From Henricia sp. BOLD:AAB3569 (taxonomy: Eukaryota > Echinodermata > Asteroidea > Spinulosida > Echinasteridae): a DNA stretch of 64,000 bases. A program made the translations under genes and the position numbers. The stretch covers positions 283,761 to 347,760 of the forward strand of contig JBBELK010000309.1 in NCBI GenBank assembly GCA_037783545.1, in the 5' to 3' direction. Below the pieces are notes generated by a model, which worked only from the letters and a program-made list of their open reading frames with translations, ran no database searches and was not told the origin of the DNA. Below, one piece after another: positions 19,905 to 53,799 of this stretch; position 1 is the first letter of the stretch; each line of letters starts with the position of its first letter.

Positions 19905-19995
19905 CTTTTTCTTATAGCTCAGCTGGTAGAGCGTCTGCTCGGTAAAATTAGAGGTCTCGGGTTCGAATCCCAATAAGGCCCTTACAATTTTTCTC
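19905..19995 (+). mobile_element. tRNA-like SINE head
   Basis: TAGCTCAGCTGGTAGAGCG (box A) and GGTTCGAATCC (box B) are spaced as in a tRNA. The last acceptor-stem pairs (TTT against GCC at the far end) do not form and one T-stem pair is a mismatch, so I call a SINE head rather than a tRNA gene. The downstream words AATAAGGCCCTTACAATTTT recur at 49,305-49,345. Confidence 0.65.
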
Positions 19996-21295
19996 TCATT
20001 TCAAGTTTGGTTCATACATGTTAAAGGTTCTGCTAATTATTGCTAATTATTGCACACTGCCCCTAAAAGGTAGCTTGCATTAGCAGGAAAAAAATATTTT
20101 CAATTTTATTGAAAATACATATGTACATGTATTAAACCTTTTTTTTTTTAGCTGTTGGGGGAGGGTGGGAGGCAGCACTGAACATGACTTTCAGAAAAAT
20201 AAAATTGTTCTTGCCAGGAAAATTGCGCTTCCGGAATGAAAAGACGTCTGCTGTAAATTAGGTTAGCCACTGATCACTGTAAATGATTGATAACGTTTAA
20301 AAACAAAATTGCCGAACGTACTAAAGTGCTACAGTACATGTACGCTATCCTCACGCACGTACATGTATCCTTGAAATGCTGTACATGCACTGCGAAGCAT
20401 GAAATTACATACTGTAGGTAAACAAAAGCCAATGGGAAAACTGTGTTGGCACAGTCAATTTTGTTATGCCATATAGCAGACTGTACACATGATACATGTA
20501 AAAGTTATTTCGTCTATTATGGAAAATGATCAAGCCGACTACCAAGCATATTGACTTGTGTGTGTGTAATTTAAAGACATGTAATTTGGACACAACCTTG
20601 GTTAAACTGACTATACGTGTGCAGGTTTCTGTATTCAAATGAGGGACGTTTAACAATATGAACAATAGGGTCCGCGATTGCCAAAGGGGTTCGCGATTTG
20701 GAATCCTGTACAAAACAAATGAGGAGTCGCCAAAAAAAAATAAGTCCAAACAAAAAAAGAAGAACAATGGGACGTCCGCGGTTGGAGGTGGGTACAAGAC
20801 AGGGTGTACAAAACCTTTTAAGACCCACTGTATTATTTGTAATGACCCAAAGTTTTACTTCATTCGTCGACAATCTTGAAACCTTACAACTGAATGTGGT
20901 TGTAGCATTCACTTTAAACAACGATAAAGGTACTCATCAAAATTATCACGAACGTTAGGTCTACACCATTTACTGAAAAGATGTACATGTACAGTGTGTT
21001 CTTCGGGAGGATCAGATTTTACACTATGAAGATGAAAGTACGGTACGTAGGAATTGTGTACTTGGGCCAAATTTAATGGAGCTGTTTGCCAGAAAATACG
21101 TACATGTACATTGTGTACTACTCAGCAAATGTTTATGCTTAGCAAAAACTGGCAGAGCACCGTTCACGTAAAAGAAATACATTTACGATGGGATTTTACA
21201 TGTAGCTGATAATCTGATTTTGCATACATGTACATGTTTAGCACAATTGTTTTCTGTGCTATGCAGTATTTTCTGGTAACATATTATTCTCCTAC

Positions 21296-33385: not shown

Positions 33386-33468
33386 AGTTTGAAAGCTCAA
33401 GGTTTTCTTCTACCCGGGTACAGCACATGCGTGCTGCTGCAAAAAAGACGTAATTCAGCTTTACGTTC

Positions 33469-33951
33469 ACTTCGCCCCATTGCCACTTCGCCCCATTGCC
33501 ACTTCGCCCCATTGCCACTTCGCCCCATTGCCACTTCGCCCCATTGCCACTTCGCCCCATTGCCACTTCGCCCCATTGCCACTTCTCCCTGCTGCCACTT
33601 CGCCCCATTGCCACTTCTCCCTGCTGCCACTTCGCCCCATTGCCACTTCGCCCCATTGCCACTTCGCCCCATTGCCACTTCGCCCCATTGCCACTTCGCC
33701 CCATTGCCACTTCGCCCCATTGCCACTTCGCCCCATTGCCACTTCGCCCCATTGCCACTTCTCCCTGCTGCCACTTCGCCCCATTGCCACTTCTCCCTGC
33801 TGCCACTTCGCCCCATTGCCACTTCGCCCCATTGCCACTTCGCCCCATTGCCACTTCTCCCTGCTGCCACTTCGCCCCATTGCCACTTCTCCCTGCTGCC
33901 ACTTCGCCCCATTGCCACTTCGCCCCATTGCCACTTCTCCCTGCTGCCACT
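33469..33951. repeat. 16-bp minisatellite with two unit types, 30 units
   Basis: Type A is CACTTCGCCCCATTGC and type B is CACTTCTCCCTGCTGC. By my reading the order is A7 BAB A8 BAB A3 BAB A2 B, that is 23 A and 7 B. Because 16 is not a multiple of 3 and neither unit contains a stop in any frame, all six frames are open here; the long frames on both strands are an artefact, not genes. It is the left arm of an inverted pair with 34,116-34,258. Confidence 0.9.
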
Positions 33952-34115
33952 TCAAAATGGCTTTTTTCATCGGCTAAAGTTTTAAAAGGAAAAAAATGAT
34001 GCCAATTTTGCAGGAAATAAAATATCTAATGTCTAAACAGTAAAAATGTACAGGTAAGCAAAATAATGGAAAAAGAAATACAGACATATCGCTTTCGTTT
34101 AGATCAAAATACCGG

Positions 34116-34258
34116 AGATGGGACGAAGTGGTCATGGGACAAAGTGGTAATGGGGCGAAGTGGTAATGGGGCGAATGGCGATGGGGGAAGTGGCAACAGG
34201 GCGAAGTGGCAACAGGGCGAAGTGGCAACAGGGCGAAGTAGCAACAGGGCGAAGTAAT
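34116..34258. repeat. Inverse 16-bp repeat arm
   Basis: About nine units of the GGGCGAAGTGGCAACA type, the reverse complement of the array at 33,469-33,951 and more diverged. The 165 bp between the arms (33,952-34,115) is AT-rich and non-coding. Together they form a foldback element with tandem-repeat arms. Confidence 0.8.
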
Positions 34259-43675: not shown

Positions 43676-43845
43676 TATTTGCCACTTCGCCCTGAACCAC
43701 AGCCTGTGCACGAAGTATTTTGGGGCGAAGTGGCATTCGGACGAAGTAGTGTAAGGACAAAGTGGTTTGGGGGCAAGGTGGCTTTTGGGGCGAAGTGGTT
43801 CAGGGCGAAGTGGTGCAGGGCGAAATGGTTTTGGGGCGAAATGAA
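43676..43845. repeat. Degenerate 16-bp GGGCGAAGTGG repeat with inverse start
   Basis: It opens with TGCCACTTCGCCCTGAACCA and then switches strand to repeated GGGGCGAAGTGGTT-type units (about nine). Same unit as 33,469-34,258 but much more diverged, so an older copy of the same foldback family. Confidence 0.7.
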
Positions 43846-46599: not shown

Positions 46600-48075
46600 C
46601 ACAGAATGGACCACCACAGGACAGTACTTTTTTGCCGTATGTATGTACAATCCAGGCCCCTTTCCACCAATCATTATTGTTGTTACATTGTACATGTACA
46701 TGTATCTCCTAGTGGAGCCCAGACCACGAACGGGGCCCCCGGGGGAGCCCAGCGAGATTTGGCCAGGATTGTAGGTCACATTTTTACTTAAATGGAAGAT
46801 AGAGGTTGTTCCAACTATCCAGTGCAGTGATTCTGCCCAAGGGGATATATTTTTCCAAGAAAATGATAATTGAAGATGAATTTATATAAATGTGTGTGCG
46901 CACACATTTTTTTACAGGGACACCTTTACATGAAAGAAACTACATGTGTAGGCCCATGACTACGAAGGTATTATGGCTTCGCTGTTTGTGCAGCATAATC
47001 ATAGAACCAGCCTAAATAGGACAGCGGCTTTGCACAATTTCTCGAAAGCCTGGTCACAGTTTTTCATTGAGCTGAATTCCACATACATGTACATTAGGTT
47101 GGTATTCATCGTAGACTTCCTCAATCACACATGGAGACAAAGCCATTTTGAACAGTTTTCCAATCATGTAATCATGTAATTAGTGCAATATACAAAAATG
47201 CACATACGTACATGTATATGTGCATGTTTACATGTATGTTCAAAGTTCAGAAAAAGAGTGCCAGCTGTGATTTTGTCATATGCAAGAATACTAATGTTGA
47301 AAGTCTGTGATTTATTTCCATAAGCATAAAATAAGATAAAATTGATTTATTCTCCACTTTAATCAGGCGGACGTGTTGTCTATTGATAACAGTTGATTAC
47401 TATTGATAATAGTGATTTGGCAGGCCTGTTGCATAGGCGCATTGTGCGTTGAGTGCCTAGCAAGAGTTGTTTTTGACGCGCCGCTGGAAAACCACACTGC
47501 GCGTCTAGACGCTTGAAGCTCGGCGCTTGATGCGCGACGCACATGTACGACCTCCCACTGCTTCATTGGATTTTCAATAGCGGTCGCTCTTCGTTCGCTC
47601 TTCGTTAAGTGATATATGAACGCACGCTTCATTAACTAACAATGATTAACTAATCTTCGTCGAACGAAGCGATTTCTCTAGTGAGAACGGGGTCCGAGTT
47701 TGAAATGTCAAAATTAAGATTCAATGTATTTAATTGACTGTTCATCACTGCTTTAGGAACACTTCGGAGGCACATGTCAACTATACCGAGCAAAAAAAAA
47801 AACGAAAATTTCCTTTGTAACCAAGTTGACATCGAAATGTATTCACTTAACAGCTTCATTATGCTGACTGCATAAAGGTCCTTTTGTGCTGAAAATTCCA
47901 ACTCTCAGATTGACTGCTTTTTTTTTCTTCAATCAAAAAGAGGAGAAAATTTGGGTTTTTTTGTTGCTCGGTAAATGTTTTTTAGAAATACAATATGGCA
48001 AAGGAATACTTAAAGGGGCTGTGTCACGGTTTGCGCATGCGCAGCAAAACTTTGTCGCTGGGTTTTGCATACATG
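46600..48075. other. No gene recognised
   Basis: No splice-bounded coding segment was recognised. It holds TACATGTA palindromes (46,690-46,705, 47,205-47,235) and a short CpG-rich patch at 47,450-47,600. TTAA then AGGGGCTGTGTCACG at 48,010 looks like the left end of a TTAA-type element with no visible partner. Confidence 0.35.
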
Positions 48076-48262
48076 TATATGGGTCATTCCATAAATACGG
48101 GACCCAGTGTCCCCCGTTACGTCGTGACACTTCCGGAGTTGATTTTTATACATACCGGGCTTCAGAGAACGGTTACCCTCAGCATATGAACAATATGTGG
48201 CCTCGTAAATCGAACACCTTTGCCTGTTAATATTACCCAAAACATGACGAGATTGATTCAAA
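48076..48262. repeat. Dispersed repeat, GGGTCATTCCATAAATACGG family
   Basis: About 180 bp shared with 21,296-21,480, same orientation, including GTGTCCCCCGTTACGTCGTG. It directly precedes the left arm of the 146-bp repeat element. Confidence 0.6.
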
Positions 48263-48275
48263 AAAAAAACTGAGC

Positions 48276-48784
48276 TAGATTATCTGGTCACCTAACCCAT
48301 TGAAACCTGATGCAAAATGTTTGTCTGAACTCCCTTTCTCTTGATTGACCACTGCCAGAAGTTTTCTTTGGTGGAGCCCCCTGCCAGACGCCCCCAAAGT
48401 GGCCAGTCCCCAAAAAATAAGATAGATTATCTGGTCACCTAGCCCATTGAAAACTGTTTCATAATGTTCGTCTGAACTCTGTCTCATGATTGACCACTGC
48501 CAGACGTTTTCTATGGTGGAGCCCCCTGCAGCTGCAAGCTAGACACCCCCAAATAGCACTTCCCCAAAAATGGGTAGAGCCCCCCTGACAGACACCCAAA
48601 AATGGCAGACATCTTCTACGGTGAAGGCCTCCCCCTGCCAGACACCCCCAAATGGCCACTCCCCCAAAATGAGCTAGATTAGCTCATCACCTTACCTAAT
48701 GCAAAATGTTCGTCTGAACCTCATGTCTCTTGATTGACCACCGCCAGATGTTTTCTGTGATGGAGCGCCGCGCCGCGCCGCCCG

Positions 48785-48820
<36 letters not shown>

Positions 48821-48885
48821 TTGCCAGACACCCCAAATGGCCACTCCCCAAAACGAGGTACATTATATCTGGTCACCCAATTAAA
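48276..48885 (-). repeat. Left array of the 146-bp repeat, inverse and decayed
   Basis: Reverse-complement units of the satellite at 51,788-53,560. TAGATTATCTGGTCACC begins at 48,276 and 48,423 (147 apart), followed by a partial and a fourth diverged unit. Landmarks are CCACTGCCAGA, GGTGGAGCCCCCTGCCAGAC and CCCATTGAAA. A run of 36 C (48,785-48,820) has replaced part of the last unit. Confidence 0.85.
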
Positions 48886-48890
48886 CAGTG

Positions 48891-48965
48891 TTGTAGTTGA
48901 GTCATCCAACATCAAATCTGAGTCCGAGTTTCAAGTCCAAGTCTAGGTCTCGAGTCATTATTGCG
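48891..48965. repeat. GAGTCC-rich dispersed repeat
   Basis: Starts CAGTGTTGTAGTTGAGTCAT and ends GGTCTCGAGTCATTATTG, matching 23,583-23,680. It separates the left satellite array from the broken gene. Confidence 0.65.
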
Positions 48966-48968
48966 ACA

Positions 48969-50480
48969 GAATTTGCGTATTCAATAGCGTCCGAAGAGCG
49001 CTATGCCCCGGATGGCATTTGTCTAGACCCAAATCCAGCGAGAGCCTGCGTATGGGACAATGACAATGCAGACATAGAAACTCTAAATGGTGAAACAACA
49101 CTACATGCTACTGTGGTTCACACATACCAGAATGTGGTGCCAGATGATGAACAGAAGCCTGAAAATGATCCTACAACTCAGCAATTTAGAGCTGAAAACC
49201 ACCTCAGAAAGTTTTTTGGGAAAGAGCGGGAGATATTCCAGTTTAGGAAATATTTTACTATGGCTTAGAGTATCTGCCTAGTGAGTCAGAGGTCTCGGGT
49301 CTGAATCCCGATAAGGCCATTACTGTTTTTATCATATCCCAAGTAAGGCTCAGTTTGTCAGTGCCTCTTCAAGACCAAGTGCTGCTGACAAAATATGAGA
49401 CACATTCAGCTTCATCTGAAGATATGGCTGACATACAAAACAGAATTGATGCCAAAGGGAGGCCTCTCTAGCTCCAGAGCACTTGATCTGTAGTTGTTTT
49501 GCAAGATGGGGGGCAACATATATGATCTTGGCTGAAGGGTTGATGATGGGGTTCATCAAATGCAAGTTCTGTAACCGTTTTGCAATAATTCACCAACTGC
49601 TGTCAAACGTGCTGGAACAAAAAAAATGCATGAAGTCAACGCTTTTGCATGGGCTTATACAAAGAGCTGGAGTCAATTCAACTTGTGATCAGCACAGTGT
49701 GCCATCTGACACCAGCCAAGTTGAAAAGCACCTCTCTGATCCAACTTTCACCCAACACCTTGATGGGAGTTATGATGACTTTCTCCAAAAGATGCTGGAG
49801 GGAAGCAACAGTCCAACAGCACAGTACTGGGCGATTTACGTTAATCTTATCGATCCCTGTGCATAAAGATATTTAGAGGTACATGTATGTCAAAACCAAT
49901 GAAGTTTCTGGCTACATTGTCATAATTCACTGTTGTTCTTTGCTCTCGACCGACCAAACTATATATATGCCAGATGGGAATGCTTTTCTGGCAGAAGTTG
50001 GAAATGCACTTCCGAAACTGTGAGAGGAACCAGCAAGGACTCCAGCAGATCTGCAGTCGACCTCTCTCTTGAACAGATTGAATATTTTGCAATACGTACA
50101 CAATTACCAATTAAACTGATTCTGTGTATTAGCGTTTAAAAACTGTGTACTTGTATAACAAATTAAGCTGACATAATCCACAAGTATCGGAAAGCTAAAT
50201 TCATTTGCCTGTAGTTGATAAATCTGCTAGTCATTTTCACGTCTTTCACATGTACATGTACATTTAGGAAGGGGAGGATAAAACCACTCGGTATCCTTGA
50301 AAAAGATGAGACTGACCGCTTCCCGAATCTCTTGATCAGAATGGGTGAGAGAGGAGGTCGTGTGGACCTAGATGTGGCATCAAAGTTTGTATGCCACGTG
50401 TATGATCAGAGCAAGAAACGTAGTGAGGCAGCTGATGAGTGGCAACATCTTGTGGAGAATATAGGGGAGAGTGGGGTTAG
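48969..50480 (+). pseudogene. Broken gene of an uncharacterised invertebrate family
   Basis: Coding-like pieces occur in order but in different frames with stops between. 48,969-49,268 holds ACVWDNDNADIETLNGETT. 49,486-49,866 ends NSPTAQYWAIYVNLIDP. 49,936-49,998 reads FFALDRPNY-IY-ARWECF with a two-residue insertion, then a shift to FLAEVGNALPKL. 50,265-50,480 reads DVASKFVCHVYDQSKKRSEA. From memory, a large family of uncharacterised invertebrate and fish proteins, often linked to mobile DNA, has the same succession WDN...ET-G, TAQ-W--Y---ID and FFA--RPNYARW. A SINE-like fragment at 49,254-49,345 interrupts it. Its activity is unknown. It lies between inverted arrays of the 146-bp repeat. 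I am confident it is coding-derived and non-functional, less sure of the family. Confidence 0.6.
49254..49345 (+). mobile_element. tRNA-like SINE fragment
   Basis: GGCTTAGAGTATCTGCC and AGGTCTCGGGTCTGAATCCC with ATAAGGCCATTACTGTTTTT parallel the sequence at 19,905-19,995. Box A is damaged. Inserted within the broken gene at 48,969-50,480. Confidence 0.55.
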
Positions 50481-51787
50481 TTGGAACAGTGGGTATGTTG
50501 AAACATTAATATTTTCTTCCAAGGCTGTAGTTATTTTTATGAAATCCTGCCACTCATAATGTTGCTATTAGCAACAGCTATCCACCATATTTTCTGCAAC
50601 ACATGTGCTGCAACCCCATTAAAATGAGAAAGGAATGTTGATCTTCCGAGTAATTTTTTCACCATTCAGAAATGTTACATTATGCTAACGATGTTCATGT
50701 ATTCACTCGACTAGTTTTTGAATATTTTAGGGTACTTACAATGCTACAAAATGAGGTAAACGAAATGTCAAATTGTAGTCTCTGTTTTTCGTATGAAGCT
50801 TGCAAATATCAAACAGGCCAGCGGGTTTAGTTGGAACCGATAAGGGGGTTAGTTGGAGCATGTTTCAACTAACCCATAGGTGAAAGTATTGCCTTTGGAT
50901 AGAAGTTTTAGTTTATTTTCTCGCATTTTGTGCAAGGGGGATAACATATTGCCTTTTGCTTATAATCTATGAATTTGTACAGCTCGGCCTATACATTTTG
51001 TTTTGTTCCCCAAAAGGGGAAAAATTTAATCCAAACCTTATAATTACACATTTATCTGGCTTATATCTAGTTTAAATGTATAGGTCATGCATATTTTGCA
51101 TAGTTGTATTGTAGGCTTACGTGTGAAGTGTATGGCTGCGGAATGGATGTTCTACTGTTAAAGATAAACTTAAAGAAGATCAAAACTTTAAAATGTAAAG
51201 TTTATAATCTAAATAAATTAGAATCTTTTGTTAATTTTAACATTTTAAGGTTAGAAAGTTAAAAACAGTTGTACAGTGAAACCTGCTATTAAGACCACCT
51301 TAATAAACAGGCCACCTGTTTATAGTGGCCATTTTTTTTTTACGTTCCCAGGCTAAGGGTGGCAACTATATACAAGTTTAAGTGAACAAAAAGCGATCTT
51401 AACCGCTTGATGCATTATTGTTTTGGTGCTTTTGTTTTGTGCAGTTGTTAGTCACTCCCGTGTACCCCAAGGGGTTAATTAGCGCCCCAATTTACAGCTT
51501 AAGTGTCTGCCTTGCTAATTAGGGTGATTAAAGAAGTTATAGTAGTTTTTAAAAGACAACGTACCGTGTTTAAACTTACCCCATAGGTGGGGTAAGTCGG
51601 AACAGCTGACATGGTCAAGTTCAAGGTGGATTAAACAAGAAATCATCAACGAGTCCTAACATTTTATAGGCTCCATTTGTAGCCCAAATATGTATGCTTA
51701 AAGTGTTGATACTCATAACACCCTTTAGTACAGTACTAATTTTGCTCTTTTGTAATTCAAAATGAAGAAGATACTGATTTCAAGAGG
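50481..51787. other. Interior of the satellite-flanked element, no gene
   Basis: All reading frames are closed. The word GGGGTTAGTTGGAACA (50,471) recurs in variants at 50,824, 50,847, inverted at 50,864, and at 51,591 (GGGGTAAGTCGGAACA). A pogo-like left end (CAGTGAAACCTGCTATTAAG) lies at 51,274. The rest is AT-rich. Confidence 0.45.
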
Positions 51788-53560
51788 TTAGGTGACCAGA
51801 TAATCTAGCTTATTTTGGGGAAGTGGCCACTTTGGGGGCGTCTGGCAGGGGGGCTCCACCATAGTAAACTTCTGGCAGTGGTCAATCATGAGACAGGGAG
51901 TTCAGACCAACATTTTGCATCAGGTTTCAATGGGTTAGGTGACCAGATAATCTAGCTCATTTTGAGGGAGTGGCCATTTGGGGGCGTCTGGCAGGGGAGC
52001 TCCACCATAGAAAATGTCTGGCAGTGGTCAATTATGAGACAGGGAGTTCAGACGAACATTTTGCATCAGGTTTCAATGGGTTAGGTGACCAGATAATCTA
52101 GCTCATTTTGAGGGAGTGGCCATTTGGGGGCGTCTGGCAGGGGAGCTCCACCATAGAAAATGTCTGGCAGTGGTCAATTATGAGACAGGGAGTTCAGACG
52201 AACATTTTGCATCAGGTTTCAATGGGTTAGGTGACCAGATAATCTAGCTCATTTTGAGGGAGTGGCCATTTGGGGGCGTCTGGCAGGGGAGCTCCACCAT
52301 AGAAAATGTCTGGCAGTGGTCAATTATGAGACAGGGAGTTCAGACGAACATTTTGCATCAGGTTTCAATGGGTTAGGTGACCAGATAATCTAGCTCATTT
52401 TGAGGGAGTGGCCATTTGGGGGCGTCTGGCAGGGGAGCTCCACCATAGAAAATGTCTGGCAGTGGTCAATTATGAGACAGGGAGTTCAGACGAACATTTT
52501 GCATCAGGTTTCAATGGGTTAGGTGACCAGATAATCTAGCTCATTTTGAGGGAGTGGCCATTTGGGGGCGTCTGGCAGGGGAGCTCCACCATAGAAAATG
52601 TCTGGCAGTGGTCAATTATGAGACAGGGAGTTCAGACGAACATTTTGCATCAGGTTTCAATGGGTTAGGTGACCAGATAATCTAGCTCATTTTGAGGGAG
52701 TGGCCATTTGGGGGCGTCTGGCAGGGGAGCTCCACCATAGAAAATGTCTGGCAGTGGTCAATTATGAGACAGGGAGTTCAGACGAACATTTTGCATCAGG
52801 TTTCAATGGGTTAGGTGACCAGATAATCTAGCTCATTTTGAGGGAGTGGCCATTTGGGGGCGTCTGGCAGGGGAGCTCCACCATAGAAAATGTCTGGCAG
52901 TGGTCAATTATGAGACAGGGAGTTCAGACGAACATTTTGCATCAGGTTTCAATGGGTTAGGTGACCAGATAATCTAGCTCATTTTGAGGGAGTGGCCATT
53001 TGGGGGCGTCTGGCAGGGGAGCTCCACCATAGAAAATGTCTGGCAGTGGTCAATTATGAGACAGGGAGTTCAGACGAACATTTTGCATCAGGTTTCAATG
53101 GGTTAGGTGACCAGATAATCTAGCTCATTTTGAGGGAGTGGCCATTTGGGGGCGTCTGGCAGGGGAGCTCCACCATAGAAAATGTCTGGCAGTGGTCAAT
53201 TATGAGACAGGGAGTTCAGACGAACATTTTGCATCAGGTTTCAATGGGTTAGGTGACCAGATAATCTAGCTCATTTTGAGGGAGTGGCCATTTGGGGGCG
53301 TCTGGCAGGGGTCCTCCACCATAGAAAATGTCTGGCAGTGGTCAATTATGAGACAGGGAGTTCAGACGAACATTTTGCATCGGGCTCCAAGGGGTTAGGT
53401 GATGAGCTGACCTAGCTCATTTTGGGGGAGTGGCATAATGTCATCTGGCAGGCCCCTCCCACCAATGAAAATGTCTGGCACTCATGTTTTATTATTGCGT
53501 GGATGATGGGCATTATGTACCAAGTGGTTTCAAGGGGTTAGCTTTTGAGATGATCTAGCC
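51788..53560 (+). repeat. 146-bp satellite array, about 12 units
   Basis: TTAGGTGACCAGATAATCTA begins at 51,788 and 51,935, then every 146 bp at 52,081 through 53,249, with altered units at 53,395 and 53,538. The central units from 51,935 to about 53,300 look identical base for base; the first unit has about ten changes and the last two are strongly diverged. All six frames are closed. This is the classic pattern of unequal exchange homogenising the middle of an array. The unit length is close to the DNA length of a nucleosome core. Confidence 0.95.
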
Positions 53561-53799
53561 TATTTTGAGGTGTCCTTAAGGTACCACCCATTGCCACACC
53601 CACCAGTGTTCGTGCGGCAGACGTCCATATATACTGGGACTTATGGCACATATGCCTGTACACTTAGATATTGGTTAGCTTCCCAGCTAGGCTAACCCCT
53701 CTGGGCTCCCGGTCTATATCAAAACTATGACACCAAGACAGGGCCGAGTCATTCCAAAATTAGGTGTAAAGTCTCCAAACACGTTTTACTGCACGCTGG

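Follow-up and report, generated by a model that had tools for sequence, protein, structure and literature searches.

The window analysed here is a 64,000-bp stretch of the genome of the sea star Henricia sp. (C309:283761-347760 of a 740.7-Mb assembly). Two arrays of the same 146-bp unit lie in it in opposite orientation, on either side of an interior that includes the pieces of a broken gene. Very probably the feature is a non-autonomous member of a DNA transposon family and has been damaged; the family most likely belongs to AcademX, a lineage of the Academ superfamily, and its terminal inverted repeats would have grown into foldback arms. The interpretation builds on inverted pairs of arrays, common tips and target duplications that recur in a family of copies across the genome.

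An earlier note on this DNA described a short decayed array on the minus strand, a long array on the plus strand and a 2.9-kb interior with coding remnants. All of these are present, and the gene pieces could be identified. The limits of 48,276-53,560 given there hold roughly for the arrays but not for the element, because the right tip lies at 53716 and the left end breaks off at about 48267 without reaching a tip. The features are as follows (position in the window, strand, feature).

48074-48266, no strand: left flank, a high-copy dispersed repeat truncated at the arm junction, with poly-A at about 48261-48270
~48267-48885, minus: left arm, reduced to the inner satellite units (4 decayed ones and a 40-bp part-unit); outer part and tip gone
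48881-51777, plus: interior, found in 7 other copies with main blocks at 86-90%
48960-49251, plus: transposase gene remnant, piece 1, 85% to the open-frame region of C288b
49253-49352, plus: tRNA-like fragment within the gene remnant, resembling window positions 19907-20014
49344-49518, plus: transposase gene remnant, piece 2, 80% to C288b
49525-50077, plus: transposase gene remnant, piece 3, matching residues 94-284 of P0001 at 43%
50100-50416, plus: remnant of the part of the gene that follows the C288b open frame, probably a last exon
50470-51700, no strand: nested dispersed repeat, limits approximate, present outside the family too
51778-53570, plus: right arm, satellite array of 13 units of 146 bp, the final 43-bp part-unit included
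53571-53716, plus: terminal domain and tip of the CGG type, final letters GGCTCCCGGTCTA
53717-53719, no strand: expected target duplication TAT, its partner gone with the left tip

Structure of the window copy

The two arms are inverted repeats of each other, with a best stretch of 115 bp at 95%. With 3 mismatches or fewer allowed, a 23-base core taken from the unit has 13 matches in the window and none in 100 shuffles. Both arrays start and end in the same unit phase, and their four ends have no flanking modules in common. The left-arm units have diverged by 9-27%. In the right arm the units R2-R10 are the same letter for letter, R1 differs by 8%, R11 by 2% and R12 by 32%; R12 and R13 are diverged and yet common to other copies of the family.

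The nine identical units within an older array (52000-53300) point either to one unit having spread very recently or to an assembly effect. A contig that ends 1.1 kb past a right arm (C430, L020) matches the arm and flank of the window identically in all bases compared, and this contig and the window from 51778 onward are probably one region assembled twice.

On the left side, the flanking dispersed repeat extends past the cut point of the window in four of five other copies inspected. Both the repeat and the arm are cut at 48267, so a deletion or rearrangement appears to have taken away both. The repeat did not resume across the element, as it would after an insertion into the repeat, at any of the four candidate places.

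The window contains further short arrays outside the element. Units of 16 bp (CACTTCGCCCCATTGC) are found at 33468-33953 and 34118-34255 in opposite orientation, 165 bp apart, and a third stretch related to them lies at 43718-43840.

A family with inverted arms

The genome was searched with a 301-base piece of the array. Only the best candidates were scored in the genome searches, so that counts are lower bounds. The query gave at least 112 matches, grouped into at least 20 places. The earlier note had proposed to look for inverted arrays flanking similar interiors elsewhere, and inverted pairs, with a minus array to the left, a plus array to the right and the units pointing outward, were found at 10 of these places.

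Inverted-pair loci: C309 (the window), C599, C266, C340, C23, C41, C162, C258 and two on C288

The other 10 places had a single orientation only, and the opposite arrangement, with units pointing inward, was found at none of the at least 20 places. Retrieval of 20 stretches gave 17 loci beside the window, and a more sensitive search found arrays of both orientations at 10 of the resulting 18 loci. The family therefore does not consist only of single-orientation satellites at unrelated sites, the outcome that would have spoken against one mobile unit.

In the eight full elements the arms are 203-2338 bp long with the terminal domain included, the units are 142-156 bp and mostly 146-147 bp, and the interiors span 2.8-9.6 kb. 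Long inverted ends with a variable number of tandem repeats, around a middle domain variable in size and content, are the characteristics of the foldback class. The outer unit of the right arm is conserved at the arm ends of the family (77% matches over query positions 2-260, at many loci). A miniature copy in C158 (L026 8385-9020) is 636 bp long and has both tips, the duplication TAA, one short array and almost no interior.

Tips, target duplications and empty sites

When 28 arms were compared outward from the array, 24 continued in register for about 150 bp and then stopped sharply. The four exceptions are the left arm of the window, which stops at the array edge, the truncated right arm of C162, and the left end of C253 and the right end of C288a, where the tips are kept but displaced or shortened. 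The tip consists of GGCTCC, one of CGG, CAG or TGC, and TCTA (TCTT at the left of C266). Loose, mismatched matches to this pattern inside C288b, C258 and C930 (n=3) were excluded as tips. The terminal 149 bases as a query gave at least 36 genome matches.

Nine elements have both tips, and all nine have one TGC end and one CGG end when the CAG of C266 is counted in. Seven of the nine are flanked by an exact 3-bp target duplication (ATA, GTA, TAA, TAT, CTA, TAA and TTA) and C41 by a 4-bp one (CATA). When the bounds were shifted by up to 30 positions as a control, a three-base match arose in 550 of 33048 trials (1.7%). Target duplications, which the earlier note had asked for along with empty sites, are thus present, and for one copy, C266, the empty site can be seen as well. 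Its joined flanks were the only query that matched across the junction, to a dispersed repeat that lies inside five other elements (87%). The insertion in C266 (L009, around 1289 and 7835) itself sits within a dispersed repeat.

The two ends also differ in length. The TGC-tip arm is longer than the CGG-tip arm in all eight full elements, a comparison that leaves out the window, C162, the 636-bp copy in C158 and also C1051a and C1051b, the last two because their CGG-type arms are long but their partners unseen. The window has a long right arm of the CGG type, whose partner arm is cut; the TGC side of the window copy is taken from the CGG tip on its right. When the copies are turned so that the TGC end lies on the left, the gene reads rightward in the non-autonomous copies and leftward in C258 and C288b, the pattern that a single inversion of the interior by arm-to-arm recombination would produce.

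Interior and gene

The interior of the window copy is found at seven other loci (C162, C23, C266, C288a, C340, C41 and C599), where its final 64-75 bp are 95-99% identical to the window. Six of the seven are about 95% identical among themselves; C340 lacks the first 400 bp of the interior and C288a the first 64. The gene remnant and the tRNA-like fragment are common to these copies, which have lost about 1.45 kb from the stretch that joined piece 3 to the region at 50100-50416. The interior-sharing copies constitute a non-autonomous subfamily, and the window copy is an older member of it. The interior belongs to the family, with the correction that part of it is a nested repeat: the stretch 51150-51700 gave at least 54 matches (best 40 of 1926 candidates scored), and its presence at many other places indicates a nested dispersed repeat that has been carried along.

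A tRNA-like sequence also occurs at 19911-19977 (Rfam tRNA, 29.8 bits), to which the fragment at 49253-49352 is related, and both are likely parts of a tRNA-derived short interspersed element.

An 8.7-kb copy of the family has an open frame of 1377 amino acids. Relatives of this frame are found in sea urchins and other animals, and the closest named proteins are from sea urchin (60-64%). The broken gene in the window is the element's own gene, with a related open frame in the long copies, and not a trapped host gene. In a model comparison, the C-terminus of a 69%-identical relative fits the XPG/FEN1/XRN nucleases. Several searches gave no match: a Pfam scan of window positions 44-59 kb in two plus-strand frames of six, an initial protein query made of a short segment, and a box pattern in sets of viral and genome contigs (0 matches). 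P0001 had no confirmed match among viral contigs.

Related families and the origin of the arms

A genome search with the open frame gave at least 51 matches, among them members of other families that are 26-50% identical to it, many of which have long open frames. Seven stretches were retrieved, two copies from each of three families and L030. The three families have 3-bp duplications in six of six copies, and their tips, whose patterns were picked after inspection of the data, start with TAG like the tips of the present family read inward. No tip pair was found in L030. One related Academ-like element (L032 1804-8236) lies within a 209-bp satellite with the duplication AGA, and its joined flanks match intact satellite units over 208 of 208 bases, a clean empty site.

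None of the seven related stretches has inverted tandem arms; where they have inverted repeats at all, these measure 44-128 bp, and L034 and L035 have tandem repeats close to one end (34 bp and 156 bp, respectively). Because the three related families lack satellite arms, the arms look derived, and they appear to be special to the present family among the four families examined.

The terminal domain was considered as the parent of the 146-bp unit, but the link is weak. The motif GGTTAGnTnnCCAG occurs in both, but the pattern was written after both had been seen, 24 of 1000 simple shuffles aligned equally well, and neither C258 nor C288b has the pattern in its units. The shared motif is at most a weak hint of parentage.

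Mechanism and alternative explanations

The elements are built of a tip, a terminal domain of about 150 bp and a tandem array of 146-147-bp units, mirrored at both ends. The encoded protein is proposed to cut at the tips and to insert the element with a 3-bp stagger, and short copies such as that of the window would depend for their movement on the protein that longer copies supply in trans. The arm arrays may expand and contract through unequal exchange, and recombination between arms may have inverted the interior in one lineage (C258 and C288b). Loss of the left tip from the window copy would have followed, as would the spread of a single right-arm unit to nine identical copies.

Seen from the window alone, the model favoured at first was that an inversion of about 3.5 kb had divided one ordinary satellite array into two of opposite polarity: L4, the outermost full unit on the left, is at a distance of 0.08 to R1, the innermost on the right, and 0.09 to the homogenised units, L4 and R1 have private variants in common, and the left array decays inward while the right decays outward. 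The model was dropped once recurrent inverted pairs, common tips and target duplications emerged. The same inverted arrangement with common tips at nine other places, and an outer right unit that is not decayed but is the conserved outer arm end of the family, make a split array very improbable. Just as little can be said for two independent insertions of short satellite arrays by Helentrons of the HINE type, in opposite orientation by chance. In the Pacific oyster, HINE/Helentron elements are described as mobile short arrays of 140-180-bp units (PMC7492417), a span that includes the 146-bp unit, and the common starting and ending phase of the two window arrays would agree with such a carrier. 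The likeness extends to the dispersal of short arrays by a mobile element. HINE, however, has one central array of single orientation between two modules, and Helitrons produce no duplications (PMC7492417), whereas the present family has two inverted terminal arrays, the outer arms of one element with a common interior and inverted tips, and 3-bp duplications. The array flanks in the window are unrelated as well, and a Helentron carrier was therefore rejected.

It is unlikely, though less so than either of these, that the element is a genuine cut-and-paste foldback transposon of a non-Academ or undescribed superfamily, whose protein has an XPG-like nuclease too. Pfam offers only a weak DUF6589, and Zator is another superfamily with 3-bp duplications (PMC10045372). 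The same source describes AcademX by a nuclease domain jointly with 3-4-bp duplications, a combination that argues for an AcademX element.

Some observations weigh against the main interpretation, a damaged transposon copy that is most likely of AcademX type. Foldseek with the same model of the relative gave no match at E <= 0.001, the best being an Argonaute at 0.021. DUF6589 is below the Pfam cut-off, both for the open frame (0.04) and for P0004 (1.4e-5, 24.5 of 27 bits), and names no transposase, and the long gene is known without a placed start codon or last exon. C266 has no duplication, which is explained by its filled site being about 13 bp shorter than the empty sites, and eight of the nine joined-flank queries had no empty site among the sequences compared. 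The window copy lacks its second tip, so that its own target duplication cannot be checked.

A wider proposal, possible but doubtful, is an Academ lineage whose expandable satellite arms are repeated transposase docking sites, with flipping of the interior through arm recombination and seeding of satellites; it would be a foldback transposon based on a nuclease-bearing transposase, with an origin independent of FB, Galileo and Tetris. The unit as a docking site might be suggested by analogy with Galileo (PMC4079207), together with a weak shared motif.

Comparison with known systems

Foldback transposons are difficult to place because gene-bearing copies are scarce. In this one genome, long copies that retain most of the gene exist beside short copies armed in the same way and beside related families that have no arms, and together they make the origin of tandem-repeat arms, the link to satellites and the role of an Academ nuclease directly testable.

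The arms of sea urchin TU elements are composed of short repeats, which offers a comparison for the 16-bp inverted arrays of the window. These arms reportedly have repeats of about 15 bp, without a 146-bp unit, and the elements reportedly make 8-bp duplications. The transposase of Galileo is of the P type. The likeness to FB and Galileo elements suggested in the earlier note stands for the foldback structure, as does the view of one mobile unit with satellite arrays as inverted arms; the superfamily is most likely Academ (AcademX) rather than that of FB or Galileo.

The TU elements of Strongylocentrotus purpuratus (Lieberman 1983, cited in PMC4079207) are likewise of the foldback type with long inverted repeats. 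Tetris (TIR-220), a foldback element of Drosophila virilis, makes target duplications of 8-10 bp and is not known to have a gene (PMC4079207). In contrast, the duplications of the present family are 3 bp, and a gene whose end is nuclease-like is present in its long copies.

No publication joining 'Academ' with 'foldback', and none with the words of the unit, the box or the satellite, was found in a literature search that covered few subscription journals and excluded Repbase Reports.

The AcademX lineage of the Academ superfamily is said to be recorded in Repbase and by Kojima in 2020, and its nuclease is of the XPG type. In the present family the duplications are of 3 or 4 bp in eight of nine elements and a relative has a nuclease-like C-terminus. 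Nuclease and duplications together give the fit to AcademX as the lineage is described in print. That description defines AcademX by the nuclease domain and 3-4-bp duplications (PMC10045372), and the present family resembles it in having 3-bp and once 4-bp duplications and a nuclease-type C-terminus. It differs in its long inverted arms of 146-147-bp tandem units. Foldback arms and Academ transposons are each already known, and their combination, as judged from the literature searched, would be the new part.
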